DNA from: a virus
DNA: 20,718 bases
IMG/VR virus record: IMGVR_UViG_3300046009_006648
Coordinates: 1 to 20,718 of that record
Strand: one strand, 5' to 3'
The position numbers and the translations under genes are program-made. The notes under the pieces were generated by a model. That model worked only from the letters and a program-made list of their open reading frames with translations, had not been told where the DNA came from and searched no databases. Below, piece after piece: positions 2,525 through 20,262 of the stretch. Positions within the stretch are counted from its first letter, which is position 1, and every line of letters starts with the position of its first letter.

Positions 2525-2532
2525 CCCCCTGG

Positions 2533-2591
2533 CTCCTCCCAAAGACCCCCCTACCCCAGACAAAAACGGGGTAGAGAGGGGAGGCTCCTCC
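2533..2591. other. GC-rich two-part hairpin after the first early block
   Basis: CTACCCC (2551-2557) pairs with GGGGTAG (2568-2574) around a loop containing CAAAAAC. An outer stem is formed by CCTCCC (2535-2540) with GGGAGG (2579-2584). The 9-mer GGCTCCTCC flanks it as a direct repeat at 2531-2539 and 2583-2591. No T-run follows on either strand, so an ordinary intrinsic terminator is unlikely. A structured 3' end or an RNA-binding target is possible. Confidence 0.5.
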
Positions 2592-2603
2592 GCTGTAAGC
2601 AGC

Positions 2604-2759
2604 ATCTCGATGTCAGTCTCCTGACCCCTCGGCTTCGAGATAAGACCAGCCGCGCCGGTTATTCGGGAACTGCCCCCTAGTCCTAAGACATACGGCGTAC
2701 CACCTCAACTCCGAGCCACCATGGTAAGTGCCTACTATCGTGCGGAGTACGGTCTGGTC
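2604..2759. other. Series of inverted repeats in a gene-free stretch
   Basis: ATCTCGA (2604-2610) pairs with TCGAGAT (2635-2641), and inside it GTCAG (2612-2616) pairs with CTGAC (2621-2625) around TCTC. Further on, GACCAG (2644-2649) can pair with CTGGTC (2754-2759), enclosing ACTCCG (2708-2713) / CGGAGT (2743-2748) and the palindrome ACCATGGT (2718-2725). The stretch is more GC-rich than its neighbours. No forward frame here looks coding. A leftward frame (2613-2831) exists but shares its whole length with these repeats. A structured RNA on either strand is possible. Confidence 0.4.
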
Positions 2760-2765
2760 AGAAAC

Positions 2766-2842
2766 AAAAAAAGCTGTTTGGTCTGCACCCTGGTGAGAGT
2801 CCCTTGGGGGTAAGTCAAGGGCAGGGCACATACCAAACAGCT
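2766..2842 (-). ncRNA. Candidate structured RNA or large terminator on the leftward strand
   Basis: AGCTGTTTGGT at 2772-2782 is the exact reverse complement of ACCAAACAGCT at 2832-2842. Inside, TG (2784-2785) pairs with CA (2829-2830), CCCTG (2788-2792) with CAGGG (2822-2826), and CCCTTG (2801-2806) with CAAGGG (2816-2821). This gives one long hairpin with a 9-nt apical loop and an 8-nt bulge on one side only. Read leftward, the stem is followed by a run of seven T (2766-2772 complement), as at an intrinsic terminator. No leftward gene lies just upstream, so a small antisense-oriented RNA or a barrier to leftward transcription is likely. Confidence 0.5.
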
Positions 2843-2879
2843 CTATCCGCTCTCACACAGACAAGCACATTGTAGTCAA

Positions 2880-2914
2880 GCTCGCTAAGGCGCGGTAAGG
2901 CTCGCTAAGGCGCG
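2880..2914. repeat. Two 15-bp direct repeats with 20-bp period, possible operator or iterons
   Basis: GCTCGCTAAGGCGCG occurs at 2880-2894 and again, identical, at 2900-2914. The 20-bp centre-to-centre distance is about two helical turns, so bound proteins would lie on the same face of the DNA. The pair sits about 110 bp upstream of the recombination operon, in a gene-free stretch. A regulator operator or replication iterons are plausible. No origin features such as an adjacent AT-rich melting block are clear. Confidence 0.55.
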
Positions 2915-3017
2915 TGAACCATATATCAGACAAACGGTTGATTTACTATGACATGCGTATGTTCCTAGTGTTCGCTTTGATGTATTATCCCTACTGTTGT
3001 ACCTAACCAAGGAGAGG
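2915..3017 (+). promoter_or_regulatory. Upstream region of the recombination operon
   Basis: No gene is seen. This stretch probably contains the promoter of the operon starting at 3021. A -10-like TATTAT lies at 2983-2988, but its -35 (TGTTCC around 2960) is poor, and a TTGATT at 2937-2942 has no matching -10. AAGGAGAGG (3009-3017) is the ribosome binding site for ATG 3021 and is preceded by CTAACCAA, the same word seen in the leaders at 305 and 654. Confidence 0.35.
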
Positions 3018-3020
3018 CAA

Positions 3021-3269
3021 ATGAAGGTTTTGAAACTAATTGACTCAGATTTATATGACTTCAGACTGAAAGTAGTTCACATCATTGAAGCCTGCGCCAA
3101 CGTCCAGCGGGTGCTTGCAGGCGAATGGGGCGGTTTGTCACCCTATCAAGTCCAGCGTCTTGAAGTGGTGTTTGAGAAAGCAGAAGAACTTAATCAAATG
3201 CTTAATTACGTCAAGAACCGTGACGCTCGCAAAGACATTAGCACTTGCTTTGATGAGGAGGCAGCATGA
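3021..3269 (+). CDS. Small phage protein opening the recombination operon (82 aa)
   Basis: A TTG at 2997 is in frame, but AAGGAGAGG (3009-3017) is spaced for ATG 3021, so the shorter form is chosen. The protein begins MKVLKLIDSDLYDFRLKVVH and is mainly helical: about 12-40 amphipathic, then a conserved-looking segment GLSPYQVQRLEVVFEKAEEL (about 43-62), and an acidic tail CFDEEAA. No membrane segment, metal site or enzyme motif is visible. Its stop overlaps the next start as ATGA, and it is the promoter-proximal gene of a ten-gene operon for recombination. A regulatory or accessory role is possible but unproven. Confidence 0.75.
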   Translation: MKVLKLIDSDLYDFRLKVVHIIEACANVQRVLAGEWGGLSPYQVQRLEVVFEKAEELNQMLNYVKNRDARKDISTCFDEEAA

Positions 3270-3472
3270 GAAATACAGGTGGGCCTGCGTTTCCGCTGTT
3301 TGCAGCAACAGGCCACAGCGGCATGACCTTGCGTGACTACTTTGCAGTAAAGGCCATGCAGGGATTTATTGATTCAGCCGCCGCCCAAGGCCATTTTGTG
3401 CCGCAGGACGATCAGTTGTCCAAGTGTGCATATGATTTAGCAGACGCTATGTTGAAAGCGAGGGAGCTATGA
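3266..3472 (+). CDS. GGPAFP/GMTLRDYFA-type small phage protein (68 aa)
   Basis: ATG 3266 overlaps the upstream stop and is preceded by GAGGAGG. The protein shows the pattern NTGGPAFP (about 3-10), then GMTLRDYFAVKAMQG (about 19-33) and a C-terminal AYDLADAMLKARE helix. I know this combination from many tailed phages and prophages, where it marks a short conserved protein of unknown function, commonly located among early or replication genes. The length (68 aa) is usual for that family. No catalytic residues are evident. The next gene, the exonuclease, overlaps its stop as ATGA, so it may be made in step with the recombination proteins. Confidence 0.8.
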   Translation: MRNTGGPAFPLFAATGHSGMTLRDYFAVKAMQGFIDSAAAQGHFVPQDDQLSKCAYDLADAMLKAREL

Positions 3473-4359
3473 CTAGCTTTGACACTGAGTCACGCAGGAA
3501 AGCTATCTGGGCCACAGATGCTAGAAAGATAGCCGATGGTCGTGCTGCCGATGTTTACTTAGAAAAGATCGGACAGGCAGAGCGTGAGGACATTTCCCAC
3601 ATTGAAGCAGTGCAGTGGGGTCTGAAACTGCAAGATGTGATTGGCAGAGAAGCCGGTGCTCGCTTAAAGATGGAACTCAAAGAAGCAGACTATGAGTTAT
3701 TTCATCCTGAGCACAAATGGATGGCTAGCCACTTTGACTTTATCAGTGCTGATGGCAAGACACTGGTTGAGGTGAAGAACTACAACCAAAGCAAACGGAA
3801 CCAATACGATGCAGAGACTTCACTTATGCCTGCTGCCGACGCAGCGCAATGTGTCCACGAGGCTACGGTACATCGGGTACAGCGTGTCGTACTTGCGGTG
3901 CTCTTTGGGGGGCAAGAACTGGTGCTTATTGACAAAGAAGTATCAGACGATGAGAAAGACGCGCTCATACGCATGGAAGCTGAGCTATGGGCCTCAGTAC
4001 AGACCAAACAGCCTCCAAACGCGACTACGGTGGATGCGGCAAGAAAACTCTTCCCAGTATCTACGTCGGCTGGGGTTCTAGCCAATGCTCAACTAGAGCA
4101 AGCCTGCCAGCAATTAAAGGCTATTAAAAACCAGATCAAGCAGTTCGAGGAGGCTGAAGAGAAGCTACAGGCTTTGATTCAAGGGCAGATGAAAGAAGCA
4201 GGCTCACTCATTACGTTTGATGGGAAGGTGCTTGCAACATGGAACTCTGCCAAACCTTCCAAACGCTTTGACCCAAAGTTACTGCAAGCAGAGATGCCTG
4301 AAGTCTATGAGCGTTACATCGTTGAACAACCTGGCTCACGGAGGTTTCTAATCAAATGA
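3469..4359 (+). CDS. YqaJ-type phage recombination exonuclease
   Basis: This is a 296-residue protein of the YqaJ/lambda-exonuclease (PDDEXK) fold, which digests one strand of duplex DNA 5'-3' to give single strands for annealing. Visible motifs are WGLKLQDVIG near residues 50-59, the metal-binding Asp of HFDFISADGK (D90), the EVK catalytic pair at 101-103 (TLVEVKNYN), and AAQCVHEATVHRV near 125-137 as the usual Gln/His segment. Residues about 205-245 form a coiled coil, and the C-terminus (ATWNSAKPSKRFD, then PGSRRFLIK) matches the C-terminal extension I know in phage YqaJ proteins. The start ATGA overlaps the previous stop with GGGAG upstream. It directly precedes the annealing protein, as expected for a two-component phage recombinase. 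Confidence 0.93.
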   Translation: MTSFDTESRRKAIWATDARKIADGRAADVYLEKIGQAEREDISHIEAVQWGLKLQDVIGREAGARLKMELKEADYELFHPEHKWMASHFDFISADGKTLVEVKNYNQSKRNQYDAETSLMPAADAAQCVHEATVHRVQRVVLAVLFGGQELVLIDKEVSDDEKDALIRMEAELWASVQTKQPPNATTVDAARKLFPVSTSAGVLANAQLEQACQQLKAIKNQIKQFEEAEEKLQALIQGQMKEAGSLITFDGKVLATWNSAKPSKRFDPKLLQAEMPEVYERYIVEQPGSRRFLIK

Positions 4360-5210
4360 GTAATTTAGTCGATCCAAACAAACTCGATGTCAAAGTCATT
4401 GAATCAATCGTTACCAAGGGAGACTTAAGTGCTCTTGATCAAAACCAACTCGTTAGCTACTACAACTATCGTTGTTCAACAGTCGGTCTTGACCCAAGTG
4501 CAAAACCTTTTGATGTGCTCTTGCTTAACGGAAAGAAAGTCCTGTACGCAAACGCTAGTGCCACGCAACAGCTTTCTAGTGTGCACGGACTGTCCGTTAC
4601 GCTCACTAACCGAGAGCGAGTTGAAACAATCTATATCGTTTCTGCAAGAGTCACTGGAAAGGATGGAAGAGTTACAGAGAATCAAGGCGCTGTGGACATC
4701 GGTGGACTCTCAGGAGAAAAGCTCGCCAACGCTTTGATGAAAGCTACAACCAAGGCGATTAGACGCACGGTGCTTGCTCACTGTGGATTGGGGATGCTTG
4801 ATGAAACGGAGGTGGAGACGATTCCTGGGGCTGTCGCTGCGCCAATCCATATGCCGGTTGATATACCAGTGCCACAGGTTGCTGAGGTCATTGAAGGCAA
4901 ATTCAAACTGATGGTTCCTGAAGGCGATAGAGCCAAGGTTTACAGCTCTCATCAAGACGAAATGCAGTGGCAGGACAACTTCTTTGGTTTGATTGGCAAG
5001 ATCGCTGATAGCAAGAAGATGAGCAATGAGGAGAAGAACGCTAAGTTAGCGTCTCTCTTTCGGGTCAACCACGAAACCATCGATAACTTTAGCGGGGTTG
5101 CAGCCATTGCATTCAAGAAGCGCTGTCACGATCATGAGGTCGAGGGTTTTATCGCAAAAAAGGTAGTGACTCTGGATGCGATGGAGGACGATCTGGAAGT
5201 TCTAAATTGA
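4356..5210 (+). CDS. Single-strand annealing recombination protein (RecT/Erf/Rad52-like)
   Basis: This 284-residue protein would bind and anneal the single strands produced by the exonuclease encoded just upstream (4-base ATGA overlap). Residues 30-70 contain QLVSYYNYRCSTVGLDPSA, PFDVLLLNGKKVLY and ASATQQL. Residues 100-150 contain DGRVTENQGAVDIGGLSGEK, then ANALMKATTKAIRRTVL and GLGMLDETEV. The TKAxRR...GLGMLDE block is the hallmark I know from phage single-strand annealing proteins. The exact superfamily (RecT versus Sak/Erf/Rad52-like) cannot be settled by eye. The region from about 165 to 284 is more variable and helical, perhaps for partner binding. GGAGG precedes the start by about ten bases. 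Family function is confident, subfamily is not. Confidence 0.88.
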   Translation: MSNLVDPNKLDVKVIESIVTKGDLSALDQNQLVSYYNYRCSTVGLDPSAKPFDVLLLNGKKVLYANASATQQLSSVHGLSVTLTNRERVETIYIVSARVTGKDGRVTENQGAVDIGGLSGEKLANALMKATTKAIRRTVLAHCGLGMLDETEVETIPGAVAAPIHMPVDIPVPQVAEVIEGKFKLMVPEGDRAKVYSSHQDEMQWQDNFFGLIGKIADSKKMSNEEKNAKLASLFRVNHETIDNFSGVAAIAFKKRCHDHEVEGFIAKKVVTLDAMEDDLEVLN

Positions 5211-5401
5211 CGCAGACACAGGCAGTGCTTGAGCGTTTGAAACAAGGAACGCTCACGCAACTGCAAGCGTACGCAGAGATTGGTTCAACAAGACTTGCAG
5301 CCAGAGTCGAAGAACTAAGAAAGCAGGGTCACACGATTGTGACTCACACCATCAATCGAAATGGCAAATCATTTGCCGAGTATCAATTAGTGAGGAAATA
5401 A
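5207..5401 (+). CDS. Helix-turn-helix DNA-binding protein (64 aa)
   Basis: The start is a TTG at 5207 overlapping the previous stop (TTGA), with GGAAG at 5195-5199 correctly spaced. The protein follows the small phage helix-turn-helix pattern I know as HTH_39-type: TQAVLERLKQGTLTQLQAYA at 3-22, IGSTRLAARVEELRKQGHTI at 25-44, and a wing-like end with FAEYQLV. The recognition helix would be RLAARVEELR (about 29-38). Length is normal for the family. It probably binds DNA or controls transcription, but the target is unknown. Its place between annealing and SSB-like genes suggests a role inside the recombination or replication module. Confidence 0.8.
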   Translation: MTQTQAVLERLKQGTLTQLQAYAEIGSTRLAARVEELRKQGHTIVTHTINRNGKSFAEYQLVRK

Positions 5402-5402
5402 C

Positions 5403-5669
5403 ATGAGTTCAAGTAATTACAAGAATGGGCCTGGTCAGGGTAGCTTCTTTCCAGTCAAGAACAAGAAGCATGAGAAAGCACCTGACTGGGATGGATACAT
5501 CATTTGCGATCAGGACTACAAAGCAGGTGAGCAGATCAAGATTGCAGGCTGGGTCAAGCGTGGTACTTGGGGTGAACTATTTAGCCTCAAGATCAACAAT
5601 TGGAAGCCTGGTGATATGCCAGCACCGGCAAGAGAAGTGATGCGTTCAGACGAAGATGTGCCGTTCTGA
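5403..5669 (+). CDS. SSB-like phage protein with acidic DVPF tail (88 aa)
   Basis: The N-terminus is disordered and basic (NYKNGPGQGSFFPVKNKKHE). It is followed by PDWDGYIICDQDYKAGEQIK and a beta-strand-rich core IAGWVKRGTWGELFSLKINN (residues about 46-65), and it ends MRSDEDVPF. An acidic tail ending in Pro-Phe is the diagnostic feature of bacterial and phage single-stranded DNA-binding proteins, used to recruit partner enzymes. The core is much shorter than a standard OB-fold SSB (about 110 residues), so this is a minimal or divergent form. GAGGAAATAAC precedes the ATG. The gene lies one base after the HTH gene and within the recombination operon, which agrees with a ssDNA-related role. Confidence 0.72.
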   Translation: MSSSNYKNGPGQGSFFPVKNKKHEKAPDWDGYIICDQDYKAGEQIKIAGWVKRGTWGELFSLKINNWKPGDMPAPAREVMRSDEDVPF

Positions 5670-5671
5670 TC

Positions 5672-5893
5672 ATGATCTGCCCTAAGTGCGCTGAGCAAGG
5701 GCAGTTGAACGATAGCGTTGTGCTTGACTCACGACGCTATTACAACCGCAACACCTTGCAAGATACCTGGGTGACTCGCAGGAGAAGATGCGTTTCCTGC
5801 GGTTACAAGTTCACAACCTATGAAACTTTGAAGGGAGTCGATGAGCGTAAGTACATTGCTTACGATGAAGCAGTAAGGGAGGATATGGCGTGA
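5672..5893 (+). CDS. NrdR-like zinc-ribbon protein without ATP-cone (73 aa)
   Basis: Cysteines C3, C6, C40 and C43 form a zinc ribbon in the pattern ICPKC ... VVLDSRR ... TRRRRCVSCGYKFTTYE. This is the sequence signature of the N-terminal domain of NrdR, the bacterial repressor of ribonucleotide reductase genes. Full-length NrdR is about 150 residues and has an ATP-cone after the ribbon; here the chain stops 23 residues after FTTYE. It could bind DNA at NrdR-type boxes, or interfere with host NrdR and so release nucleotide synthesis, or use the ribbon for another contact. These roles are inferences. The start lies two bases after the upstream stop with little Shine-Dalgarno, so coupling is probable. 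Confidence 0.82.
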   Translation: MICPKCAEQGQLNDSVVLDSRRYYNRNTLQDTWVTRRRRCVSCGYKFTTYETLKGVDERKYIAYDEAVREDMA

Positions 5894-6210
5894 CAAAACT
5901 GACAGAATCTCACTTGAAAGTGCTTAAGTATCTTTCCAAGCGTAAGACTGAAGCTACATTCAAAGACATTCAACTACAAACCAGGCTTGGCAGTCCAACC
6001 GTTAAGTACATCATTCGTGCACTGCTCTACAAAGGTCACATCAAGAAGCGAACACAAAAGATCGATTGCGTAACAGAACGCTTCTACACTTTTGCTAGTT
6101 GGGAACCTGTAGAGAAAGAACCTGTTAAGAGCCCTATCAAGTTCACGAAGACCCGTATTACGATAGAAAACAGGTTCTTCAATAATCCGTTTAACGTTGG
6201 TGCGCCATGA
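5890..6210 (+). CDS. Winged-helix-like DNA-binding protein (106 aa)
   Basis: The start is GTG 5890, overlapping the previous stop (GTGA), with a strong GGGAGG at 5877-5882. Residues 3-50 read as a helix-turn-helix or winged helix: SHLKVLKYLSKRKTEATFKD, then RLGSPTVKYIIRALLYKGHI, then a basic wing KKRTQK. The C-terminus (RITIENRFFNNPFNVGAP) is a short conserved-looking tail. It likely binds DNA as a regulator or replication accessory. The target is unknown, though it sits downstream of the zinc-ribbon gene and upstream of a nuclease in the same operon. I do not recognise an exact family. Confidence 0.72.
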   Translation: MTKLTESHLKVLKYLSKRKTEATFKDIQLQTRLGSPTVKYIIRALLYKGHIKKRTQKIDCVTERFYTFASWEPVEKEPVKSPIKFTKTRITIENRFFNNPFNVGAP

Positions 6211-6422
6211 ATGAGATCAGTCGTGAAGAGTTGCTAGCCAAACTGGATACGCTCTATGAACTTACCAAAGAGTTACGAGCGATGCTGGCAAGAACTGATC
6301 ACAAACTCAAGACAAGAGAAATGTTCATTAAAGCCTTGCTCGACCCTGATGCTTTTGGCTACAGCGTAGAGAATGTCGTCAGGGAAGAAGCCTGGAAAAT
6401 CTTGCAAGGAGAACGTGATTGA
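6207..6422 (+). CDS. Small helical phage protein, unknown function (71 aa)
   Basis: ATG 6207 overlaps the upstream stop as ATGA; the Shine-Dalgarno is weak, so translational coupling is likely. The chain is almost wholly helical and charged (EELLAKLDTLYELTKELRAM, then KLKTREMFIKALLDPDAFGY), with a coiled-coil look in residues 5-35 and an Ala/Glu helix near the end. No enzyme motif is present. It immediately precedes the resolvase-like nuclease and overlaps it as TTGA, so it could be a partner of that enzyme. Function unknown. Confidence 0.7.
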   Translation: MNEISREELLAKLDTLYELTKELRAMLARTDHKLKTREMFIKALLDPDAFGYSVENVVREEAWKILQGERD

Positions 6423-6733
6423 GCAAGCTAGGCAAGACCAGAGGTGCAAGTTATGAGCGAGAGGTCTGCAATGCACTCTCAGATCGATTAGGAACGAAAG
6501 TAAGCCGTGTACTAGGGCAAGCCAGAGATGGTGGCTCAGACATCGATTTAGGCCCGTTTATGATCGAATGCAAGCGTCGCAGGAAGATTGCACTTTACGA
6601 ATGGATGGAACAAGCCAAGGTGTCAGCCAAAGGCGAGAAGATGCCAGTCGTGATTTGCAGGGCAGATGGCAAAGAGAGTCTGGTGATATTCACGCTTGAC
6701 GATGCCATCACGCTCATGCAGAATGAACTCTAA
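6419..6733 (+). CDS. PDDEXK nuclease, putative phage Holliday-junction resolvase
   Basis: This is a 104-residue protein of the small PDDEXK fold found in phage Holliday-junction resolvase-like proteins, which cut branched DNA. Conserved residues are visible in order: GASYEREV with E14, DGGSDIDLG (D41, D43), IECKRR with E50 and K52, and WMEQAK with Q65, followed by the MPVVICRADG strand. The start is TTG 6419 overlapping the previous stop (TTGA), with AGGAGAA at 6407-6413. Length is normal for the family. It is the last gene of the rightward operon and is followed by a strong terminator. Other PDDEXK roles (for example DNA-end processing) cannot be excluded. Confidence 0.82.
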   Translation: MSKLGKTRGASYEREVCNALSDRLGTKVSRVLGQARDGGSDIDLGPFMIECKRRRKIALYEWMEQAKVSAKGEKMPVVICRADGKESLVIFTLDDAITLMQNEL

Positions 6734-6823
6734 TGTCTCCGGTGAATCTGCCACTAGGTTAGCGCTAGGAGCAAGCGCCAGCAGATAGCTCCTCCCCTCA
6801 AGTTGGCTCACGACGAGCCTTTG

Positions 6824-6851
6824 CCCCGTCCTAGCGACGGGGTTTTCTTTT
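6824..6851 (+). terminator. Strong intrinsic terminator ending the rightward operon
   Basis: CCCCGTC (6824-6830) pairs with GACGGGG (6836-6842) around CTAGC, followed by TTTTCTTTT (6843-6851). A smaller hairpin GGCTC/GAGCC lies just upstream (6805-6819). It faces rightward transcription 90 bases after the nuclease gene. The loop contains the stop codon of the leftward gene at 6831-6986, so the two convergent operons meet in this element. No T-run follows on the leftward strand. Confidence 0.85.
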
Positions 6852-9736: not shown

Positions 9737-9915
9737 CGCATACCTCTCTTCGTTTTGCGAGCCTTGGAATAGGCAATAGCCGCAGCTTGTTTGACTGCTG
9801 CACGTTTGCTAGCAGGACGGCTGGTACCAATCTTGCCACTTTCTTTGTAACCACGCACCATCTCACCAATGTTGGTAGAGATTGTCTTTTGACTGCTACC
9901 ACGTTTAAGGGGCAT
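9733..9915 (-). CDS. DUF6496-type small basic phage protein (60 aa)
   Basis: ATG 9913-9915 is preceded by GGAGG (complement of 9921-9925) five bases upstream. The sequence MPLKRGSSQKTISTNIGEMV, then GYKESGKIGTSRPASKRAAV and KQAAAIAYSKARKTKRG matches the widespread phage family I know as DUF6496 (M-P-L-K-x-G-x-S-Q-K-T-I, later QA.AIA.SKA). Function is not established; the strongly basic, alanine-rich helices suggest nucleic-acid contact. The first 11 bases overlap the end of the 688-aa gene, and its stop overlaps the next start by four bases. Confidence 0.88.
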   Translation of the reverse strand: MPLKRGSSQKTISTNIGEMVRGYKESGKIGTSRPASKRAAVKQAAAIAYSKARKTKRGMR

Positions 9916-11971
9916 TGGAACCTCCTAGCAATTGTTGCTGAGCAACATAACCTAATCCGCCAGCTCCTACAACATAAGTTGTGAGCCTTCCGATTGTTCT
10001 TAAAGCATTTCTTTGTGCTTCAATATCTTTCTTCAAACCTTGAGCCTGTCGCATCAACAAGTCTCGCCCTTCTTCATTGATAAGACCTTTTGATTTAAGT
10101 TTTGTTGCCAAACGCTCTACTTCATTAGCAACTTCTTTAGGAGATGCTGCTCTTGAAAGATTTGATTCAGTTTCTCTGAGTGACTCAATAACGCCACGAC
10201 GGTTTTCTGCTGCCTTCAACTGATCGCCTAATGTCTTTTGAAATGCCGCTTCAGGTGCTGCACTTACACGTTTTGCAAGATCACCAGGTTTTTCAACTGT
10301 TTTGAGTACATCAGCAAGTCTTGTTTGCGCACGTTGAAACATTGAACCAGAGGCTTCTCTTGCCGCTTTAGCTTCTGAGGCCACAGCTTTTGCAGACTCA
10401 ACCTGACCTTTTGCATCATTTACTGCACGCTGGGCGGCTTCTTTGGCGAGCCTCATATCACGAAATTCATCGTACAAGCCAAGCTGACGCAATGGCCTTT
10501 CATTTGCTACAAGCCATGTTCTAAGCGCCGCTTCTGTTGGCACCGCTTCTCTGCCAAACAAACTCTGCGTAAAGTAAAGACGACCTGACTCTTTAAGGCT
10601 TGGTGAGACTTCAAGCAATCGAGAAAACACAGGATTACCTTGCTGTGCTTTACGAATAATCTCTCCAGTTACTTGCGCCTCTGTTAACTTTTCAGCAGTA
10701 GATAAAGGGTCGACATCAATCACGCGAGCTAAAGCGCCATTACGCTCAACAATGTCTAATGGCCTAGACAGCGTACGAAACGTTCCAAGCGCTTGCCTAT
10801 AGTCCTCTGGCGTTTGTTTTATAAGGTCTCCTCGCAAGACCTTAAGAACATTTAGAACCTCTTTATTTGCTGCAAGCAAACGACCTTCTTCTGTTTGAAA
10901 GATGTCCTTGCTTAGATACTTCCTAAGCGAATCAGCGTTTCTTAAAGTTAACTGATTAACTACTTTTCCATCTTCGCCAACAGTTCCAGCAAGGTATTTA
11001 ACTTGATCGAGCAACCTAATGACGTTTGGATTTCTGGTTTGCTCTTGCAAATTCTCAACAGTAGAAACTAGCCGGTTCGTATTAACGACGGGCTTATCGC
11101 CATATTTATCTAGCACTTGTGCGAATCCAGAGCCTTGCGCTCTTGCCGCACTCAAATCTCTTTCTAGCTTTTGCGTAGTTGCTCTAAGCTCTGCGCCAAA
11201 TCGCTCTGCATTGATCGTTGGTTGCGCAAGTAACCGCTGCTCAAGTTGATCAACTGCTTGCTTAGCTGCACCTAATTCTTGTTCTGCTCCGCCAACCCTA
11301 GCTTCTGCTTGCGCCAACCTTTGTTGCTGGGCTACGTTTTGCGCTGCAACACGTTCTGCTATTGGCCTTCTTAATTCCGCCGCTTGTGTTGCTGCAAGTT
11401 GCTGCGCAGTCAAAGGTTGCTGTCCTTCTCGTTGCGCACGAATAGCACCTTGCCTTTGCATTTGCTCTATTGTCTGCTGCGTTCTACCGGCTTGACGTTC
11501 TATACCTGCAAGTTCTTGTTCGGTTCTTGCAATGCCTGGTTGCAGTTCTGCAAAGCCAGCCTGCCTAACTCTTTCTGCTTCGGCGGCGGCAGGCTTACCT
11601 CTTGCCGTACTAATCAATTCGCCAACTTTGCCTGCACCATATCGAGCAGCACCAACACCGCCAGTTATTAACGATGGAGCAAGCCCAGTCAAAAGCTCGG
11701 CAACGGGTCTGCGAGTAGGCGAAACAATGCCAGCCTCTTGCATCTTTTGCCCGATGTATTCAGAACCCATAAATGGCTTTTCTTCTTTGTAGCCAAATGG
11801 ACGCATCAACATGGCCGCAATATCAACAGGAGCGCCTAGCGTTCCGGCGACCAGTGCTCTATTGGCAACATCAGTAACAGGTCTGCTTCTATCTACAGGT
11901 GCTTTTTTAGGAACTAAATCACCATAAGCATCAGTTTCTTTGGCCGGAACTAGGTCTTCATAACCATCCAT
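9905..11971 (-). CDS. Large coiled-coil virion protein, likely internal/ejection protein (688 aa)
   Basis: The N-terminus repeats the motif YEDLVP / YGDLVP (residues about 4-21), which I know from internal virion proteins of podo-like phages. A glycine-rich hydrophobic stretch follows (about 92-115, ELLTGLAPSLITGGVGAARY), then long Gln/Ala/Glu coiled coils (about 130-270 and 500-600), and a hydrophobic C-terminus (TTYVVGAGGLGYVAQQQLLG). No lysozyme or transglycosylase motif is seen. The gene follows the 520-aa gene directly (TAAATG) with AGGAG upstream, and overlaps the DUF6496 gene. With the 355-, 520- and 1466-aa proteins it forms a block like the T7 gp14-gp15-gp16 ejection cassette. That parallel is inferred from size, order and composition, not sequence identity. 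Confidence 0.72.
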   Translation of the reverse strand: MDGYEDLVPAKETDAYGDLVPKKAPVDRSRPVTDVANRALVAGTLGAPVDIAAMLMRPFGYKEEKPFMGSEYIGQKMQEAGIVSPTRRPVAELLTGLAPSLITGGVGAARYGAGKVGELISTARGKPAAAEAERVRQAGFAELQPGIARTEQELAGIERQAGRTQQTIEQMQRQGAIRAQREGQQPLTAQQLAATQAAELRRPIAERVAAQNVAQQQRLAQAEARVGGAEQELGAAKQAVDQLEQRLLAQPTINAERFGAELRATTQKLERDLSAARAQGSGFAQVLDKYGDKPVVNTNRLVSTVENLQEQTRNPNVIRLLDQVKYLAGTVGEDGKVVNQLTLRNADSLRKYLSKDIFQTEEGRLLAANKEVLNVLKVLRGDLIKQTPEDYRQALGTFRTLSRPLDIVERNGALARVIDVDPLSTAEKLTEAQVTGEIIRKAQQGNPVFSRLLEVSPSLKESGRLYFTQSLFGREAVPTEAALRTWLVANERPLRQLGLYDEFRDMRLAKEAAQRAVNDAKGQVESAKAVASEAKAAREASGSMFQRAQTRLADVLKTVEKPGDLAKRVSAAPEAAFQKTLGDQLKAAENRRGVIESLRETESNLSRAASPKEVANEVERLATKLKSKGLINEEGRDLLMRQAQGLKKDIEAQRNALRTIGRLTTYVVGAGGLGYVAQQQLLGGSNAP

Positions 11972-13534
11972 TTATAGCTCCTGTCCTGTGCGCTCTTTGA
12001 ACCTTTTGGCTACCGCTTCACGATTCGCGCCATTTGCTATCGCTTGATTGGCTCTTGTTCGCTCAGCGTCTACTTCACCACCTTGAGGAGCTGCTTGCGG
12101 CGTAGCAGGTTTTGCCCCTGCTGTACCAGGCATTCCTTGAACACGAGCAATAGCAGATAACTCTTTTTCATCAAAGCCGTAATCCCTGCCTCGGCCATAC
12201 AGTTCTTTCTGACGAGTTTCAAGCAACTTGTCATAAGTTTCTGGCGAATAAGCGCGTGGATCAAGAATAGGGCCAACAGTGCGCTGCGTAAAGACAGGAA
12301 CTCTAGTACCTGTTAAACCTTGTTCTATCTTGAATGCAGCAAGAATTGCATCTTTAATGAATAGCGTTGTCTTGTCAGAACCTGCAAGCTCAGGACTATT
12401 GATGACAGACATGATGTCGCCTTCAGTAGTCTCTCTGCCAATCAAACTTCGTAACTTTGTAATTGTTGGCGCTGGTATTGCACGAAGACCTGTTTGCACT
12501 TCTGGGTCTCTTAAGCGGTCTCGCAACTTAGATACTTCTAACAAACCCTGGCCTGTATTGATGACATCAAGCGCTAACTTGTCAGTAGGCAATTTTTTAC
12601 CAGTAGCCTCTAAGATTTGAAATCTAGGGCCAGCAGTGCCCATACGTTGTTCAGCCGTAATATCTCTTAACTCAACTCTATTTCTCTGCCTAGCCTCTTC
12701 TAACAACAACTGATTTGTAATGCTTTGTTGTCTTGCTTGCTCTTGCGCAGCTATCCTTGCTTTTGTTTGCTCTTCACGAGAGCGAATCTGTTCTTGCAGT
12801 GCACTAGCCTTGTCTTTTGCAGAGATTGCATAGTTCAACGTATCAATAACACGTTTTGTATCGCCACGTACAAGATCGATATTGGCCGTACCGTTCTGTG
12901 TTAAAGCATTAAGCTCTGCATTTAACGCATTAGCTTCTGCCGTATTGCCAGCAGTCCTTGCTCTGAGTTGCGATTCGTACAAGTCTTTAATGCGTGTGAT
13001 CTCATTGCGCTGAGTATCAAGCGCTTTCTCATAGATCAACTTCTCACGGTCAAAGATGTCCTTGCGACCTTGCTTGTAGCCATCCAACATACCTTTGATA
13101 GCTTTCAGGCCTGCAATGCCAGAGCGCTTGCTAGAGCCACCAATCAAACCACCTATCAACACCATCTGCGCCATGATGCTTTGCAAGTCACCAATGTTTT
13201 CTTGCGATGGTGCAAACTCAATAGGTGCTGGTCGCATGGCTTGAAACTGTTCTTCAAACGTTGCCGCCTCTTTAGCTTGCCTCCTACCTAGTTCACCAAC
13301 ACGCTGCGCACCTTCTGTACGCTGACGCATCAAACCTTCAACCGCTGCGCGTTCTTGTTCCGCACCTGTACTTAAAACTTCAGGCAATGCCTGTTCAGCA
13401 CGAGTGCCACGCGCTATAGACTCAGTTAGACTTTGTTGCCCCGTTACCTTTTGCGTATCCGCAGAAGGCGTAAACACCTGAGACAAACGCTCATCGAGTG
13501 GATTGCGGAGGTTTGTAATTCCGTTAGCCATCAT
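11972..13534 (-). CDS. Coiled-coil virion protein, likely internal/ejection protein (520 aa)
   Basis: ATG 13532-13534 overlaps the previous stop (TAATG). A second ATG at 13529-13531 has better spacing (six bases) from AAAGG, so translation may begin there. The chain is dominated by charged coiled coils (about 60-300, rich in Arg, Gln and Glu). A glycine-rich hydrophobic hinge interrupts them around residues 120-142 (SIMAQMVLIGGLIGGSSKRS), and residues 300-470 are more globular, with IPAPTITKLRSLIGRETTEG and VFTQRTVGPILDPRAYSPET. The end is QAIANGANREAVAKRFKERT, a short helical motif that looks like a peptide-binding or docking tail. No enzyme motif is visible. Its place inside the virion block suggests an internal or tail-tube-associated protein. 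Confidence 0.7.
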   Translation of the reverse strand: MMANGITNLRNPLDERLSQVFTPSADTQKVTGQQSLTESIARGTRAEQALPEVLSTGAEQERAAVEGLMRQRTEGAQRVGELGRRQAKEAATFEEQFQAMRPAPIEFAPSQENIGDLQSIMAQMVLIGGLIGGSSKRSGIAGLKAIKGMLDGYKQGRKDIFDREKLIYEKALDTQRNEITRIKDLYESQLRARTAGNTAEANALNAELNALTQNGTANIDLVRGDTKRVIDTLNYAISAKDKASALQEQIRSREEQTKARIAAQEQARQQSITNQLLLEEARQRNRVELRDITAEQRMGTAGPRFQILEATGKKLPTDKLALDVINTGQGLLEVSKLRDRLRDPEVQTGLRAIPAPTITKLRSLIGRETTEGDIMSVINSPELAGSDKTTLFIKDAILAAFKIEQGLTGTRVPVFTQRTVGPILDPRAYSPETYDKLLETRQKELYGRGRDYGFDEKELSAIARVQGMPGTAGAKPATPQAAPQGGEVDAERTRANQAIANGANREAVAKRFKERTGQEL

Positions 13535-14601
13535 TAACCTTTGCCTGGTGTTGGGTTAGCAGGAGGGATTGTGGTGGTTTGACGATAAGGTGTTTGCGAA
13601 GGTTGGCCCATAGACAACTGAGCAGAAGCCATCAGCGCCTGCATGAGCGCATCAGAGGTAGCCGCATCCGCTTGATAACCGGCAATAATTGCCTGTCTAG
13701 TTGCCGCATCTGCTACACCTAAGTTAGCAAGTCCTTGTTGCAACAAATCATTAGCCATACGCTGCTGCAACTCTACCTGCCTTGCCTGCGATTGTTGCGC
13801 TGCAGTACCAGACGTTAACCCACGCTGAGCAAGCTGTTGACGTTGCTGTGCAGCAAGCGCCTCTAATTGCTGACGCTGTGCTGGCGTTACTTGTCCTGCC
13901 TGGCCGAGCGCTACTTGCTCCTGGCCTACTGCACGTTGAGCCTGACCAAGTTGACCTAACTCTTGGCGTACACGTTGAGCCTGCTGAAACCCTCTTCTAG
14001 CCTGCAAACCTGCTAACGCTGCCGTTGTTAAGCCAAGACCTTCTCTGGTTGTTAACAACTGCTTAGCACCTTCTTTTGCCATCTGACCATAGTCACGTTG
14101 AGCTGGTATTTGCTCTTGTGCTATTTGAGCTGCTAAGTCTTGAGCAGTTTGCCCAGTAGGTATGTTTGTCATACCTGTTGGCATTTCTGGCCCTTGATAC
14201 ATTTGCGGAAATCTACTACCGCCAAGCTCAGCAAATTGCCCATAATCAAAAGGCTGTTGACCCATTGACGCTCTTGTTTCTGCTGCTACATCTGAAAACG
14301 TTTCTGGTGTACCGGCGTAAGAAAATCCTAACGGTGAATAAGTAGTGAACGTACTTGGCATTTCAGCCGCCATTTCTGGCGTAGCCGTTTCTCCATACGC
14401 ATAGTCAAACTCACTTTGAAACTCAGGCAATCCTGTCATAGGATTGATGGTTCCAGAGCCACCATTAGCCTTGAGCATCTCTGCTTCACGAGGTGTAATG
14501 TGAGCAAGAACAGTGTCTTTGCCACGACCATGCTGGCGCACTAACTCAGCTAATCGCTGAATATCGACACCACCGAGTAAGGCTGCAAGTTGCTTTGCCA
14601 T
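13534..14601 (-). CDS. Virion protein with HITPREAEMLKANGGSGTINP motif (355 aa)
   Basis: The N-terminal region has GRGKDTVLAHITPREAEM (about 26-42) and LKANGGSGTINPMTGLPEF (43-61), a motif I have met in phage virion proteins where a GSGTINP.TGLPEF run marks the N-terminal domain. Residues 60-175 are rich in Met, Pro, Tyr and Gly and probably extended. Residues about 175-330 form an Ala/Gln-rich coiled coil. The C-terminus is Pro/Thr-rich (TTTIPPANPTPGKG). No catalytic or membrane signature is seen. The start lies two bases after the stop of the 1466-aa gene. An internal virion (ejection) component is my inference; the order resembles gp14-like first, then larger partners. Confidence 0.7.
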   Translation of the reverse strand: MAKQLAALLGGVDIQRLAELVRQHGRGKDTVLAHITPREAEMLKANGGSGTINPMTGLPEFQSEFDYAYGETATPEMAAEMPSTFTTYSPLGFSYAGTPETFSDVAAETRASMGQQPFDYGQFAELGGSRFPQMYQGPEMPTGMTNIPTGQTAQDLAAQIAQEQIPAQRDYGQMAKEGAKQLLTTREGLGLTTAALAGLQARRGFQQAQRVRQELGQLGQAQRAVGQEQVALGQAGQVTPAQRQQLEALAAQQRQQLAQRGLTSGTAAQQSQARQVELQQRMANDLLQQGLANLGVADAATRQAIIAGYQADAATSDALMQALMASAQLSMGQPSQTPYRQTTTIPPANPTPGKG

Positions 14602-14603
14602 GA

Positions 14604-17600
14604 TCAGATTCCTAATGCTCGACGTAGTTTCAAAGACCTAACATTCCATACTGGTTGCTGCTCTTCCTCACCAGTACCTTCAACATCATCACCCATACCT
14701 TCAGACAGTTGCACACGGGTAGGCAAGATGCCGGTACTTGTACCTGTATCTACAACCCTAGTCCCTGGCCTTGGCGTATACACGGCTTTAGGTGCTACTG
14801 CAAGTCGTTCTTCTGGAATGATGTTTGTTGTACCCGTGCCACCACCTATCGTGTCTTCTGCTGGCGGAGCCTCTGGTTCTGTAGGCGTTGGCTGTTGATC
14901 CAAGCCTAAGAACTTAATAATGTCTTCATCCTCGCCATAGGTAGGAACCGTGTCTTGCGGCAAGGTGTCTACAACCGTGTCAAACGTTGGCGTGGTATCA
15001 ATAACAGGCGTGGTATCGACAGCGGGCGTTGTATCTACAAAGCTAAATGTATCTTGCGCTTGTACGGTATCTTCTGGTGTATCGATATTGACTCGACCAG
15101 GATCAAACGTAAGGTCAATTGATTCTGTTACTGACGGTATTACCTTAGTTCCTGTATCAACCTTAACTTCAGGTGTAACAGTCGGCGCTACATAAGGCTT
15201 AATTCCTTGCGCCGTGTCGTTAACAAGCGTCGCCCATCTCTGATACGCAGGAGTCGTTCCAAAATTATCGGATGTGAAATCAATGCCTGCTTGTTGAGCC
15301 GCCGCTTTCAAACTTGCAATGTCTTGTTCCGTTGCAACCTTGCCATTTTCTTGAAAGCGAGTTTGTATTAACGATGCAGCAGGATCAAACGTAAAGGTTT
15401 GAGCCGTTTCTGTAACAACAGGAACCGTAATAACTTGATCTTCTACAAGCGTTTGACCTGTCTTCGTATCTACCGCTTCAATAGTTTGCGTATTGCCTTT
15501 TGTGTCAATCACTAAGGCTGTGTTGTTAGTTGGATTAACGGCAACAACAATAGCGGTATCAGTCTGACCAAACCTTTGCTGTCGAATTAGTGCTTGTACA
15601 GCAGGATCAGCTTGCAATCGCTGTAAGACTTGCGCGTTGGTAGCGTTATCTCTAGTAAGTTCTGCAACAAATGCAGCGCTTGTTGGCAAACCCATTCGAC
15701 CAAGCAGCGCAACAACATCTTGCTGTAATGCTGGCTGGTTAGCGACATCAATTTCGGCTGGCTTTTGTTCTTGAACGATCTCGCCGCCAGTAACAAGGTC
15801 GCCACCTACTTTTACATCACCGCCGGTAACGACTTGACCACCAGGCCCAACTTTTGTACCTGTATCTTGCGTTTGACCTCTAGCAGCAACTGCCGCAAGA
15901 ATCTCTGGGTTTGAACGTATGCGGGTTAATACTTCTGCGTTAGTAGGATTACCTGCCATTAACGCATCCATCATGGACTGCGTTGGAGTGATGCCCATCT
16001 GACCAAGAAAGTTGACAACTGATGCTAGATTTGCAGCACCAGGAGGGTTTTCCGTTACGTCTGAAGCAACTCTTTCAGTAGGCGTGATGCCAGCAAAGGA
16101 AGCAAAGTCAGCAGCAGCTTGGTTCCTTGCTTCAACTGTTGGGTAAACAGTACCGTTAAAGGTACGAGTTTGTTCTTCTGCTCTTGCTGTATTAGCAGCA
16201 GCCCTGGCCTTTGCATCTTCTATACGAGCCTTAGCCTCTGCAAGCGCTGGGTCTGTTTGCACATTTGTATCAGGTGCAGCCCTTCGTTCAACTTGCTGCG
16301 TTGCAACAAGCATGACTTCTGGCCTTCCATTTTTCATGGTTATGCCTGACGCAAGACCAAGCGCACCTAGCTGGCCGTTGAGGAAAGATGTCACCTCTTC
16401 GAAAGACTTACCTTGGCCTATCAAATCATTGCCAACACGAATTAAATCGTCTTTGAGCTTGGCATTAGCAGCTTCTTGCGCTGTTGCATAAAACCTATTG
16501 TTATAGGTTTGTGCGTCAATGCGTTGATTGACCTCAGCCTTCGTTGGATTGCCAGCCATAAGTTGACTGACAACTTCATTAGTTGGAGTAAACCCAAGAC
16601 TTCCTAATTTTGAAATGACATCAGCAAGATTGGCATCGTCACGAACTACAGGTTTAGAGACTGTAAACGTGTCGGTAGGTGCAGTAGTTTCTGGCTCTGT
16701 GCGTATACCAAGGCTCGCGTAATAGTCTTGCATAGCCTTATTACGGGCTTCTACCGTTGGATAGAGAGTGCCTTGAAAGGTACGCTGAAACTCATCTAAT
16801 CTAGCAGCACCCGTACCTCTTTGGCCTTGCAGATCACCTGTGTATGTTGTCGGCTCCCTTCTTACGCCTTCTGAAATTTTTATCGTCGAATCTGGCGTTA
16901 CTGCTTTTGTGTCAGTTACTGTAGGTGCCGTTTCTTTTGTGTCAATTGTCTTTGTCGTTACAGTTGGCGTAACCTTGCTAGCGTCTGATGTAAGTTTGTT
17001 ATCAGTCGTGATAGTAAACGTTTGCCCTTCAGTTACTTTTGTCCCAGTAGCAACATCCGTTGCGCCAACAATCTTGGTTTGACCAGAACTGTCGATAACT
17101 AACGCAGTGTCTTTTGTAGGATCGGTGCTAATGACAACGGCTGTAGGAAGTTGAGGTGCAGGAACATTGTCAGTCGCGCCTTGCTTTGTAACCACACTAG
17201 GCGTGATAGCTAATGGCTCACCAGGCGTGACAAAAGGTTGATCTAGCGGCAAACGTGTCGATGACACAGTAATAGAACCAAGCGAAGGAACTTCTGCAAA
17301 AGTACGCTGCGCAGCTTCTGCAACCTGATCACCTGTTTGCAATGCGCCAGTAGTCTTGCCGCCAATAACGCCACCAAGAATAGCGCTACCTGTTGCTGCG
17401 TTGCGATCACCAGTAAGAATGTATTGAGTGATTCCCTCTTCTAAAGACTCTTTCAAGCCTTCAACAATAGGCTGTAACGCTTTGGTATTAGCTCCAGGCA
17501 AAAGGCTAGCGACAGCAGTAACTAATCCTGAAATACCAGCGTCGGCCCTAGCAGCTTCAATCAATTGCTGGTTAGTCATGTTTGGATTAGCACGACGTAA

Positions 17601-19004
17601 CTCATCAATCTTTTCTAAGGCTTGACCACCAGCAGACTCAGCAATGTTCAAAGCAAAACTAGCCAACTTGCCTATAGCGCCCCCAGGCAACAATAACGTT
17701 GGAAGCTCTTGCATTATTTCTGAGCCAACAAGCGTTAAAGAACCTAAAGGATTCTCAATGGTTGCTTCAACAACAGCCCTGCCAATATCTGTAGCGCTTG
17801 AATTAGGGTTTGATGCAACCCCATAAATCTTGCTAATAAACGCTTGTTGCTGCGCTTTAATATCTTCTGGTATTAGCGCTTGCCCACCTTGCTCGATAAC
17901 GCTTAGGTAATCAATAGCGCGTTGCAGTGTTTGTGGCGCTATGCCAACTTGCTGTCCTGCTGCAAGCCAGCTTTTCCCAAGCTCTGCAAGACTTGATTGC
18001 AAAAGACCGCGAGCCGAGTCAAAGAACCCTGCTTGCACTAATGCAGGGTCACGCTCACCCATTACATAGTCTGCTGGGCCTGCACCTGATAGGTCTTCAT
18101 AACCACCAAGGAATCCAGCACCTGATGCAGCACGTTGCGCACGGGCTTCGTCTTGGTTTATGGCAGTGCTAGAACCGCGCACATAACCTTGAATGAACGA
18201 TTGGCCTATATCGCCACCAGTCACAGCGGCCTGCAACGAACTTGTTGCGCCTGATACAAGTCCGCTATCAACAGTACGGTCGCCAGTAATACTTACATCG
18301 CTTGCAGCAGATTGAACGCCAGAAGCAATCAATGAGTTAGTAACCGCTTTTTCAACATCGCCACCCATCAACCGTGCACTTGCAGCAGCTCTAATGGCAT
18401 TATCAATAATCGGATTGCCAACAGCATTAGGAATTACAGACGCAACAATGTTTTGCTTTAATGCGTCAGCAATTGGTACGCCTTGCGCAACCTGAACACT
18501 CGTATTGATGATGCCTTGACCAACCGCTTGTGCAATTGCAGCATTTGTAATGCCAAGTGCATTGCCAATAGCAGAGGCATAAGGCCCAAGGACAGGCGCA
18601 GCAATTAATCCTGCTGCAACACCTAAAAAGTCTTTGAACGCTTGGTCTGGGTGCTCGCCTTTATAGAACTGACCTTCGCCTACAGGGATAAGTTGATCGC
18701 CCTGTACGGCATACATCTGAGCATAACGCTCACGATTAGGCCCACCAGTCTTGCCTGCTATATGGTAGAACTGATTACCATTAACATCGGTATATGGCGT
18801 GATTGATGTACTTGAATGGCCGATTAAAGCCTGGTACAGCGGATGCGCTGGGTCTACGTTGCGAGCAATGTACTCAAGCGCAGTGGCTGGCCTTACAGTT
18901 TCAGTCGTTTCATTCTCGCCGCTGAACACATCGGTGACAGTGCCAAAGTCCGTTACACCAGCAAACGGATTGTTCAGTACGATGTTAGGGCCGAGATTAG
19001 CCAT
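14604..19004 (-). CDS. Giant virion protein with duplicated internal modules (1466 aa)
   Basis: The N-terminal domain (about 35-115) has YQALIGHSSTSITPYTD, NQFYHIAG and RERYAQMYAVQGDQLIPVG, then FYKGEHPDQAFKDFLGVAAG, leading into hydrophobic helices (about 125-200). A second hydrophobic block (about 430-560, with SLTLVGSEIMQELPTLLLPG and ESLEEGITQYILTGDRNAAT) could enter membranes. From about 620 the chain is Thr/Asp/Val-rich and repetitive: a 36-residue TALVID unit at 628-663 and 1157-1192, and a YPTVEARN/LMAGNPT module at 741-829 and 947-1029 with a partial third copy at 1098-1130. The C-terminus has VDTTP repeats and ends basic (NVRSLKLRRALGI). No transglycosylase motif is visible. Size and place suggest a podovirus ejection or injected virion protein. 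Its start follows the previous stop directly (TAAATG). Confidence 0.75.
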   Translation of the reverse strand: MANLGPNIVLNNPFAGVTDFGTVTDVFSGENETTETVRPATALEYIARNVDPAHPLYQALIGHSSTSITPYTDVNGNQFYHIAGKTGGPNRERYAQMYAVQGDQLIPVGEGQFYKGEHPDQAFKDFLGVAAGLIAAPVLGPYASAIGNALGITNAAIAQAVGQGIINTSVQVAQGVPIADALKQNIVASVIPNAVGNPIIDNAIRAAASARLMGGDVEKAVTNSLIASGVQSAASDVSITGDRTVDSGLVSGATSSLQAAVTGGDIGQSFIQGYVRGSSTAINQDEARAQRAASGAGFLGGYEDLSGAGPADYVMGERDPALVQAGFFDSARGLLQSSLAELGKSWLAAGQQVGIAPQTLQRAIDYLSVIEQGGQALIPEDIKAQQQAFISKIYGVASNPNSSATDIGRAVVEATIENPLGSLTLVGSEIMQELPTLLLPGGAIGKLASFALNIAESAGGQALEKIDELRRANPNMTNQQLIEAARADAGISGLVTAVASLLPGANTKALQPIVEGLKESLEEGITQYILTGDRNAATGSAILGGVIGGKTTGALQTGDQVAEAAQRTFAEVPSLGSITVSSTRLPLDQPFVTPGEPLAITPSVVTKQGATDNVPAPQLPTAVVISTDPTKDTALVIDSSGQTKIVGATDVATGTKVTEGQTFTITTDNKLTSDASKVTPTVTTKTIDTKETAPTVTDTKAVTPDSTIKISEGVRREPTTYTGDLQGQRGTGAARLDEFQRTFQGTLYPTVEARNKAMQDYYASLGIRTEPETTAPTDTFTVSKPVVRDDANLADVISKLGSLGFTPTNEVVSQLMAGNPTKAEVNQRIDAQTYNNRFYATAQEAANAKLKDDLIRVGNDLIGQGKSFEEVTSFLNGQLGALGLASGITMKNGRPEVMLVATQQVERRAAPDTNVQTDPALAEAKARIEDAKARAAANTARAEEQTRTFNGTVYPTVEARNQAAADFASFAGITPTERVASDVTENPPGAANLASVVNFLGQMGITPTQSMMDALMAGNPTNAEVLTRIRSNPEILAAVAARGQTQDTGTKVGPGGQVVTGGDVKVGGDLVTGGEIVQEQKPAEIDVANQPALQQDVVALLGRMGLPTSAAFVAELTRDNATNAQVLQRLQADPAVQALIRQQRFGQTDTAIVVAVNPTNNTALVIDTKGNTQTIEAVDTKTGQTLVEDQVITVPVVTETAQTFTFDPAASLIQTRFQENGKVATEQDIASLKAAAQQAGIDFTSDNFGTTPAYQRWATLVNDTAQGIKPYVAPTVTPEVKVDTGTKVIPSVTESIDLTFDPGRVNIDTPEDTVQAQDTFSFVDTTPAVDTTPVIDTTPTFDTVVDTLPQDTVPTYGEDEDIIKFLGLDQQPTPTEPEAPPAEDTIGGGTGTTNIIPEERLAVAPKAVYTPRPGTRVVDTGTSTGILPTRVQLSEGMGDDVEGTGEEEQQPVWNVRSLKLRRALGI
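15429..15536 (-). repeat. TALVID unit copy 2 (residues 1157-1192)
   Basis: NPTNNTALVIDTKGNTQTIE, then AVDTKTGQTLVEDQVI. It has the same length as copy 1 with about half the residues identical. It looks like a small beta-hairpin domain (strand, turn, strand), suited to a structural or binding role. Confidence 0.8.
15615..15713 (-). repeat. Partial third module copy (residues 1098-1130)
   Basis: VALLGRMGLPTSAAFVAEL, then DNATNAQVLQRL, matches the second half of copies 1 and 2 (LG..G.PT ... NPTNAEVLTRI). The YPTVEARN half is absent, so it is a partial or decayed copy. Confidence 0.7.
15918..16166 (-). repeat. Module copy 2 inside the 1466-aa protein (residues 947-1029)
   Basis: It begins RTFNGTVYPTVEARNQA and ends with ANLASVVNFLGQMGITPT and ALMAGNPTNAEVLTRI. 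It is the second full copy of the module at 16518-16784. The shared words TF.GT.YPTVEARN.A, ANLA.V, LG..G.TPT and LMAGNPT.AEV..RI leave no doubt about homology. Confidence 0.85.
16518..16784 (-). repeat. Module copy 1 inside the 1466-aa protein (residues 741-829)
   Basis: It begins RTFQGTLYPTVEARNKA and ends with ANLADVISKLGSLGFTPT and QLMAGNPTKAEVNQRI. It matches the segment at 15918-16166 in order and spacing (89 against 83 residues). The nucleotide sequences differ much more than the protein pattern, so the duplication is old and kept by selection. Confidence 0.85.
17016..17123 (-). repeat. TALVID unit copy 1 (residues 628-663)
   Basis: DPTKDTALVIDSSGQTKIVG, then ATDVATGTKVTEGQTF. It pairs with a matching 36-residue segment at 15429-15536, in the consensus NPT..TALVID..G.T..I.A.D..TG....E.Q. 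The two copies bracket the YPTVEARN modules, giving a nested A-B-B-b-A order along the chain. Confidence 0.8.
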
Positions 19005-19659: not shown

Positions 19660-20262
19660 CTATGCCTCCAACTTAAGACCAGTTAAATCCATCTCTTCCC
19701 CGACTGTACCCACAGGGAAGGTATTAAAACTCAATGAAATGCGTGTCTGCTCACCCTGAATGGTAGGCACCATGTGCGTTAAGGATGAGGGGAAAAGAAT
19801 CAACCGGCCAGTAAATGCCTCAAACCACCATGACTCTGAGTTGTACGCATTCCAGTTGTCGGTGGGAAACTTGATCTGCTGCCAGCCGTCTTTGTAAAAG
19901 TAAATCCTGTCATCAGGATTGGTCTGCAAGTAAAACACGCCTGAGATGTAGCTATTCGGGTGGGCATGTTTGTGGTGATACTGACCCTGCTCACTGTAAT
20001 TGCACCAGCTTTGTGTGATGCGTAGGGATACGTTGTGCTTGGGATTGACCGTGGCTTTGAAGTATTCAGCCACGCTGTCCTCAATGAATGATCGCAGGCT
20101 TGTCATGGCCGGATTGCGAAGCACGAAGTTATCCGTGGAGGTCGTATTGCCCGTGTTAGGCCGAGTCTCAAGCTCACGCACAAAGAACATCTCCTCGTCC
20201 GTGAGTTCACGGCCAAGGTCAGCAAAACCTACTGGCGTTGGAAATAAGTTATGCAGGTTCAC
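19660..20262 (-). CDS. 2-oxoglutarate/Fe(II)-dependent dioxygenase
   Basis: This is a protein of about 200 residues of the 2OG-Fe(II) oxygenase superfamily (PF13759-like), which uses iron and 2-oxoglutarate to hydroxylate a substrate. Motifs visible are YHHKHAHPNSYISGVFYL (metal-binding His near residues 99-101), the distal His in PSSLTHMVP (H163), and the 2-oxoglutarate-binding Arg in TRISLSFNTFP (R174). A TTG at 20277 would add five residues, but GAGG in the complement is spaced for GTG 20260-20262, which I prefer. It sits between a fibre-like gene and virion genes. The substrate is unknown: tail or capsid protein, DNA, or a host molecule are all possible. Phage enzymes of this type are frequent in aquatic viruses. 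Confidence 0.9.
   Translation of the reverse strand: MNLHNLFPTPVGFADLGRELTDEEMFFVRELETRPNTGNTTSTDNFVLRNPAMTSLRSFIEDSVAEYFKATVNPKHNVSLRITQSWCNYSEQGQYHHKHAHPNSYISGVFYLQTNPDDRIYFYKDGWQQIKFPTDNWNAYNSESWWFEAFTGRLILFPSSLTHMVPTIQGEQTRISLSFNTFPVGTVGEEMDLTGLKLEA

Follow-up and report, generated by a model that had tools for sequence, protein, structure and literature searches.

A candidate phage noncoding RNA gene that joins a kissing helix to a terminator hairpin

This work describes a structured RNA locus on the minus strand of an environmental viral sequence (IMG/VR record IMGVR_UViG_3300046009_006648; its 20,718-nt stretch analyzed here is referred to as the window). The hairpin at 2766 to 2842 appears to be the 3' end of an RNA of ~100 letters that many environmental phages are predicted to make from a dedicated promoter. 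The layout consists of a 5' hairpin followed by a long hairpin and a U-run, and the loop of the 5' hairpin is complementary to a bulge in the long hairpin (Table 1). The locus is very probably a minus-strand structured RNA gene with a promoter and a terminator, and its predicted features are those of a phage small RNA gene: its own promoter, a terminator, a noncoding transcript, and a conserved structure. In the model that we favor, a sigma-70-like promoter would direct a leftward RNA starting at ~2863, the 5' hairpin loop would pair with the bulge of the long 3' hairpin to form a compact kissing fold, and the intrinsic terminator at 2766 would stop the RNA, yielding mostly ~98-nt transcripts. 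Read-through of the terminator would append a second structured RNA (2765 to 2525), and the RNA itself would act in trans: as a structured molecule, it would bind, or serve as a decoy for, a protein or complex of the host or the phage. We regard this model, taken as a whole, as having about an even chance of being correct.

Table 1. Minus-strand features of the RNA locus in the window
Feature	Position	Strand	Details and basis
-35-like hexamer TTACCG, weak	2893-2898	-	18 nt from the -10; sequence
-10 hexamer TACAAT	2869-2874	-	sigma-70-like; fixed spacing in homologues
Kissing-terminator RNA, ~98 nt	2766-2863	-	covariance model match 2865-2767; 5' end estimated
5' hairpin	2846-2861	-	stem 2858-2861/2846-2849, loop 2850-2857
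Kissing helix, 5' strand GUGAGAG	2850-2856	-	7 pairs, 98.4% kept
Kissing helix, 3' strand CUCUCAC	2793-2799	-	inside 8-nt bulge; covariation and variant count
Terminator hairpin	2772-2842	-	P1 2772-2782/2832-2842; P2 2784-2792/2822-2830; P3 2801-2806/2816-2821
U-tract, predicted intrinsic terminator	2766-2771	-	sequence; every aligned homologue has a T-run 3' of the hairpin
Second structured RNA, type I, putative read-through part (3' end provisional)	2525-2765	-	32 tested pairs, 25 sequences

Fold and comparative evidence

The hairpin architecture set out in the initial annotation was recovered in full, at the coordinates given there. Its 11-bp perfect inverted repeat forms the outer stem P1, and the inner stems (CCCTG at 2788 to 2792 with CAGGG at 2822 to 2826, and CCCTTG at 2801 to 2806 with CAAGGG at 2816 to 2821) and the 9-nt loop (2807 to 2815) are present as described. 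The 8-nt one-sided bulge (2793 to 2800) also exists, but it is not a mere bulge, as it pairs with 2850 to 2856 in a helix that had been overlooked. The run of seven U reported for the leftward strand corresponds to seven A on the plus strand (2766 to 2772), the last of which is paired in the stem. Folding of the minus strand from 2760 to 2850 gave -44.8 kcal/mol (z = -7.8), a value equaled by none of 200 shuffles, versus z = -3.2 for the plus strand of the hairpin region. The transcribed strand carries a stable hairpin with a U-run immediately 3' of it, so the element has the features of an intrinsic terminator, and termination is predicted at this site.

Homologues were gathered from metagenomic collections, which include many fragments. 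Using the neighboring RecE-like exonuclease as a query in viral contigs, we retrieved 54 loci, at least 36 of which carry a hairpin at the matching position with stem sequences that differ greatly yet stay complementary. Adding patterns based on two 5' hairpin types and the downstream element brought the total to 193 loci, with some contigs represented more than once and a few false matches. The RNA gene is conserved in >100 phage contigs. A covariance model was built from 36 seed sequences, including the window; by its E-values, which are rough, the window matches at 6.7e-14 (as a seed member), and loci outside the seed match as well, among them the annotated phage record MW202484.1 at 1.2e-13. 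Each of the 26 phage records with a match (the window and sets of 8 and 17) contains one copy of the RNA; in one record, an extra match on the opposite strand overlaps the same site. Three further records, chosen for their second RNA, gave no kissing-RNA match with the covariance model. The first 23-base hairpin pattern had zero matches in viral_contigs, a blastn search with the window region gave no matches among phage records, and none of 56 prokaryotic matches to the 5' hairpin pattern was a true copy. Rfam searches returned zero matches for the whole window (E up to 1) and, for 2480 to 2930 (E up to 10), merely chance matches far below the gathering thresholds; neither RNA of the window matched an Rfam family.

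In the 36-sequence alignment, the 5' stem, kissing helix, and P1 core were paired in 99.3% of cells, versus 82.3% in shuffles and 26 to 60% when stems and kissing helix were given slid partners as a control. All three modeled pairs of the 5' hairpin were kept in 100% of these sequences (two with both sides changed), and the P1 core was kept in 99.7% (both-side changes in 5 of 9 pairs). Two kissing pairs (columns 15-86 and 17-84) each occur in all four Watson-Crick types. Double-change cells numbered 127 versus 37.8 in shuffles, and the covariation score was 0.519 versus 0.20 in shuffles and at most 0.12 with slid partners, all computed with relatedness ignored. Lack of covariation among homologues, along with lack of a leftward transcript ending at ~2766, had been named as what would reduce the element to a chance inverted repeat; covariation is present and, together with the folding comparison against shuffles, it excludes that explanation.

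The kissing helix varies in sequence yet stays complementary: 29 distinct kissing sequences were counted among 81 RNAs, and 79 of the 81 (relatedness ignored) form 6 to 9 perfect kissing pairs, while non-cognate combinations of loop and bulge reach at least 6 pairs in only ~10%. Divergent RNAs of unrelated sequence that precede the same second RNA appear to share the fold plan. Among these, compensating differences in the kissing segments can be seen by eye between loci L183 and L184 (CATCGA/TCGATG and CACTGA/TCAGTG) and between L185 and L198 (CAGTAC/GTACTG and CTGTAT/ATACAG). In general, the stem, kissing, and apical-loop sequences vary and the shape is conserved. An SD-targeting seed in the apical loop was considered and rejected, as the loop sequence is unconserved beyond the exonuclease clade.

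Strand, promoter, and the RNA downstream

Stem cells contained 58 G-U pairs when read on the minus strand, versus 4 C-A or A-C cells (those that read as G-U on the opposite, plus strand), and the covariance model scored 72 bits on the minus strand of the window and 19.8 on the plus. The RNA was assigned to the minus strand because of the G-U pairs, and the U-run points the same way; the G-U asymmetry and the model score rule out a plus-strand RNA. A leader peptide starting at an invariant AUG was likewise discarded, since the reading frame is not maintained: among 71 RNAs, the spacing between the AUG and the U-run is spread over the three frames (37, 18, and 16).

Upstream of the RNA, 33 of 37 clustered regions contain a sigma-70-like -35/-10 pair with the -10 ending 5 to 7 nt before the RNA start, and the mean best promoter score was 8.0, compared to 3.2 for mononucleotide shuffles. 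The -35 hexamers of homologues are mostly TTGACA- or TTGCAA-like and lie 16 to 18 nt upstream; the -35 of the window is weak, which counts against the model. The promoter-like -10 of the window had been overlooked in the initial annotation. Comparative sequence evidence establishes the strand, the kissing helix, both folds (the second is described below), and the promoter position; transcription, termination, and read-through are inferred. In the window, a direct repeat, GCTCGCTAAGGCGCG, occurs in two copies (2880 to 2894 and 2900 to 2914) that cover the -35 region and are possibly an activator site; relatives have different repeats (TTTGCCA) over their -35 region. Conserved blocks ACAAACGGTTGATT and ATGTTCCTAGTG, which recur with variation in relatives from the exonuclease context, lie at 2925 to 2990 between the leftward RNA and a rightward gene at ~2997, in what is probably a divergent regulatory region.

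Directly 3' of the U-run, nearly all loci have another RNA, or a segment resembling one, that is structured; the sole segment clearly without one (L170) has an HNH gene instead. The second RNA occurs in several types of unrelated sequence, and the formal structure test covers type I, the type present in the window. Its 32 tested pairs were 95.0% kept, with 97 double-change cells versus 27.8 in shuffles (25 sequences; relatedness ignored). A preliminary set of pairs, in which one helix was misplaced, contained 60 G-U cells and 2 C-A cells. On the minus strand, type I contains GNRA-like loops, and GGGGTAGGGGGGTCTT (2540 to 2580), which is G-rich and quadruplex-capable, is invariant in the 25 type I RNAs. 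Read-through, if it takes place, would join this RNA to the first.

Other types were also compared with known families. The second RNAs of L004/L163 (one contig) and L141 belong to Betaproteobacteria-1 (RF02932), at 80 to 92 bits against a gathering threshold of 49.4, a score that nothing in the window reaches. Six bacterial-genome matches to this family (four of the six above the family cutoff) have no kissing-RNA match around them, and the kissing RNA and the second RNA therefore seem separable. The Rfam family name is the only hint of a betaproteobacterial host. In MW202484.1, the second RNA extends to its own T-run near 4293, and a deposited hypothetical protein (4024 to 4383) spans the noncoding RNA locus. 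In L190, the second RNA is followed by a tRNA-Asp gene and then by a sub-threshold int-alpA RNA match (2645 to 2728 and 2554 to 2627). A tRNA within the L183 second RNA was unconfirmed by ARAGORN or Rfam, and weak matches to RF02278 and RF02837 in L128 and L014 fell below gathering, the one in L128 resembling an ordinary terminator. A link to homing endonucleases or omega-RNA was dropped, as HNH genes lie 3' of only some types and the other following genes are diverse.

Gene neighborhoods and competing explanations

The RNA occurs in three contexts. In the first, that of the window, it lies between early genes beside the RecE-like exonuclease and on the strand opposite to them; in the second, it precedes a replication-initiation gene and is divergent from a Sak-like annealing protein; in the third, it lies co-directionally, with the terminase large subunit on one side and a giant protein and portal gene on the other. 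The presence of one copy per phage at such different sites suggests a function independent of position. The trans-acting role as a partner or decoy, a proposal drawn from context, is suggested by this single copy being kept across different neighborhoods and by the conservation of shape while the stem, kissing, and apical-loop sequences change; because conservation lies in the structure and not in the sequence, a regulator that base pairs through a fixed seed is unlikely. Elsewhere in the window are a weak, sub-threshold Rad52-like match adjoining the exonuclease (4356 to 5210), a RusA-like resolvase (6419 to 6733), a 2OG-Fe(II) oxygenase (19660 to 20277), and, at 9905 to 19004, four large minus-strand proteins (688, 520, 355, and 1,466 amino acids) with no PHROG match at E 0.001.

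The main rival to the trans model is a cis-acting leader, in which the kissing fold would gate the stop at the U-tract for the second RNA and any genes behind it. The close linkage with a second RNA fits such a leader at least equally well: that RNA comes straight after the kissing RNA in nearly all loci and in most cases is not itself ended by a U-run terminator, same-strand replication-initiation or structural genes lie downstream in two contexts, and the kissing helix links the 5' sequence to the terminator hairpin. HK022 putRNA, which acts in cis on RNA polymerase according to PMC9378689, offers a precedent. We nevertheless consider a leader rather unlikely. The window has no leftward gene downstream before the opposing early genes, and Betaproteobacteria-1 RNA is found at bacterial loci that lack the kissing RNA. 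In addition, the kissing helix can form alongside the terminator stem and does not compete with it; an antiterminator fold is therefore not evident. A bolder proposal, which we hold to be improbable, is a modular phage RNA machine in two parts. A kissing-terminator RNA, whose kissing sequence is private and changes fast, would be set free by itself or, through read-through, be linked to one of several interchangeable structured RNAs, and would form an undescribed class of ribonucleoprotein or RNA-only particle.

Two further explanations are each very improbable in our estimation. A cis-antisense regulator of the rightward early transcript, similar to lambda OOP RNA, would account for the RNA opposing the flanking early genes in the window and its exonuclease-linked relatives, but in the other two contexts (replication initiation and terminase) the RNA and the genes behind it share one direction, and what is conserved is structure rather than sequence. 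An oligomeric RNA scaffold would have loop and bulge pair between molecules, as in the quaternary kissing loops of ROOL and GOLLD; the two segments are mutually complementary and hypervariable, the RNA comes from phages, and ornate phage RNAs have subunits joined by kissing loops (PMC12286853). However, intramolecular pairing is the simpler reading, and the RNA is much smaller and has no GOLLD or ROOL match.

An ordinary terminator, a roadblock, or an insulator separating transcription units, which the strong hairpin and U-tract favor, is extremely unlikely given the predicted promoter ~100 nt upstream, the 5' hairpin and kissing helix that are both conserved, and the retention of the RNA in neighborhoods with no opposing block. 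The initial annotation had weighed a roadblock insulating the early blocks against a small leftward phage RNA, and only the latter is supported, by conservation, covariation, strand-specific G-U pairs, and the predicted fixed-distance promoter. As that annotation noted, the interval from 2766 to 6831 has no apparent leftward gene; its minus-strand open reading frames are small and unsupported. The U-run works for leftward transcription only, and elsewhere the same RNA is co-directional, either ahead of replication genes or with terminase and portal genes on its two sides. Insulation is also unsupported because the convergent early and late blocks of the window meet at a separate terminator-like hairpin, GCCCCGTCCTAGCGACGGGGT (6823 to 6843).

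Comparison with known phage RNAs

Lambda OOP RNA, a short phage RNA read leftward beside early genes, has a promoter and a terminator of its own and is antisense to cII. The RNA of the window is predicted to have the same promoter and terminator layout, but two of its three contexts are not antisense. ToxI, the RNA of type III toxin-antitoxin systems, is pseudoknotted and terminator associated and occurs as tandem repeats upstream of toxN. The RNA described here is also pseudoknotted and linked to a terminator; it is a single unit, and the diverse following genes that were scanned include no ToxN-like toxin.

GOLLD and ROOL are noncoding phage RNAs that are likewise structured, contain kissing loops, and have no assigned function (PMC12286853). 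Their covariance models gave zero matches in the window, where the RNAs are ~100 and 240 nt and the kiss joins a loop to a bulge inside one short RNA; in contrast to GOLLD and ROOL, only three tRNAs were found in the searched loci. HK022 putRNA is a short, structure-dependent phage RNA (PMC9378689). It suppresses downstream terminators, whereas the fold in the window itself contains the terminator and the kissing helix.

Betaproteobacteria-1, shared by the second RNAs of L004/L163 and L141 and unlike both the type I and the kissing RNA of the window, gains a new context from these loci, in a modular two-RNA arrangement whose two parts in the window have no match in Rfam. Phage noncoding RNAs are sparsely catalogued, and at least one deposited genome (MW202484.1) labels the locus as a hypothetical protein. 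The 29 kissing variants provide unusually clear comparative evidence, which makes the fold directly testable.
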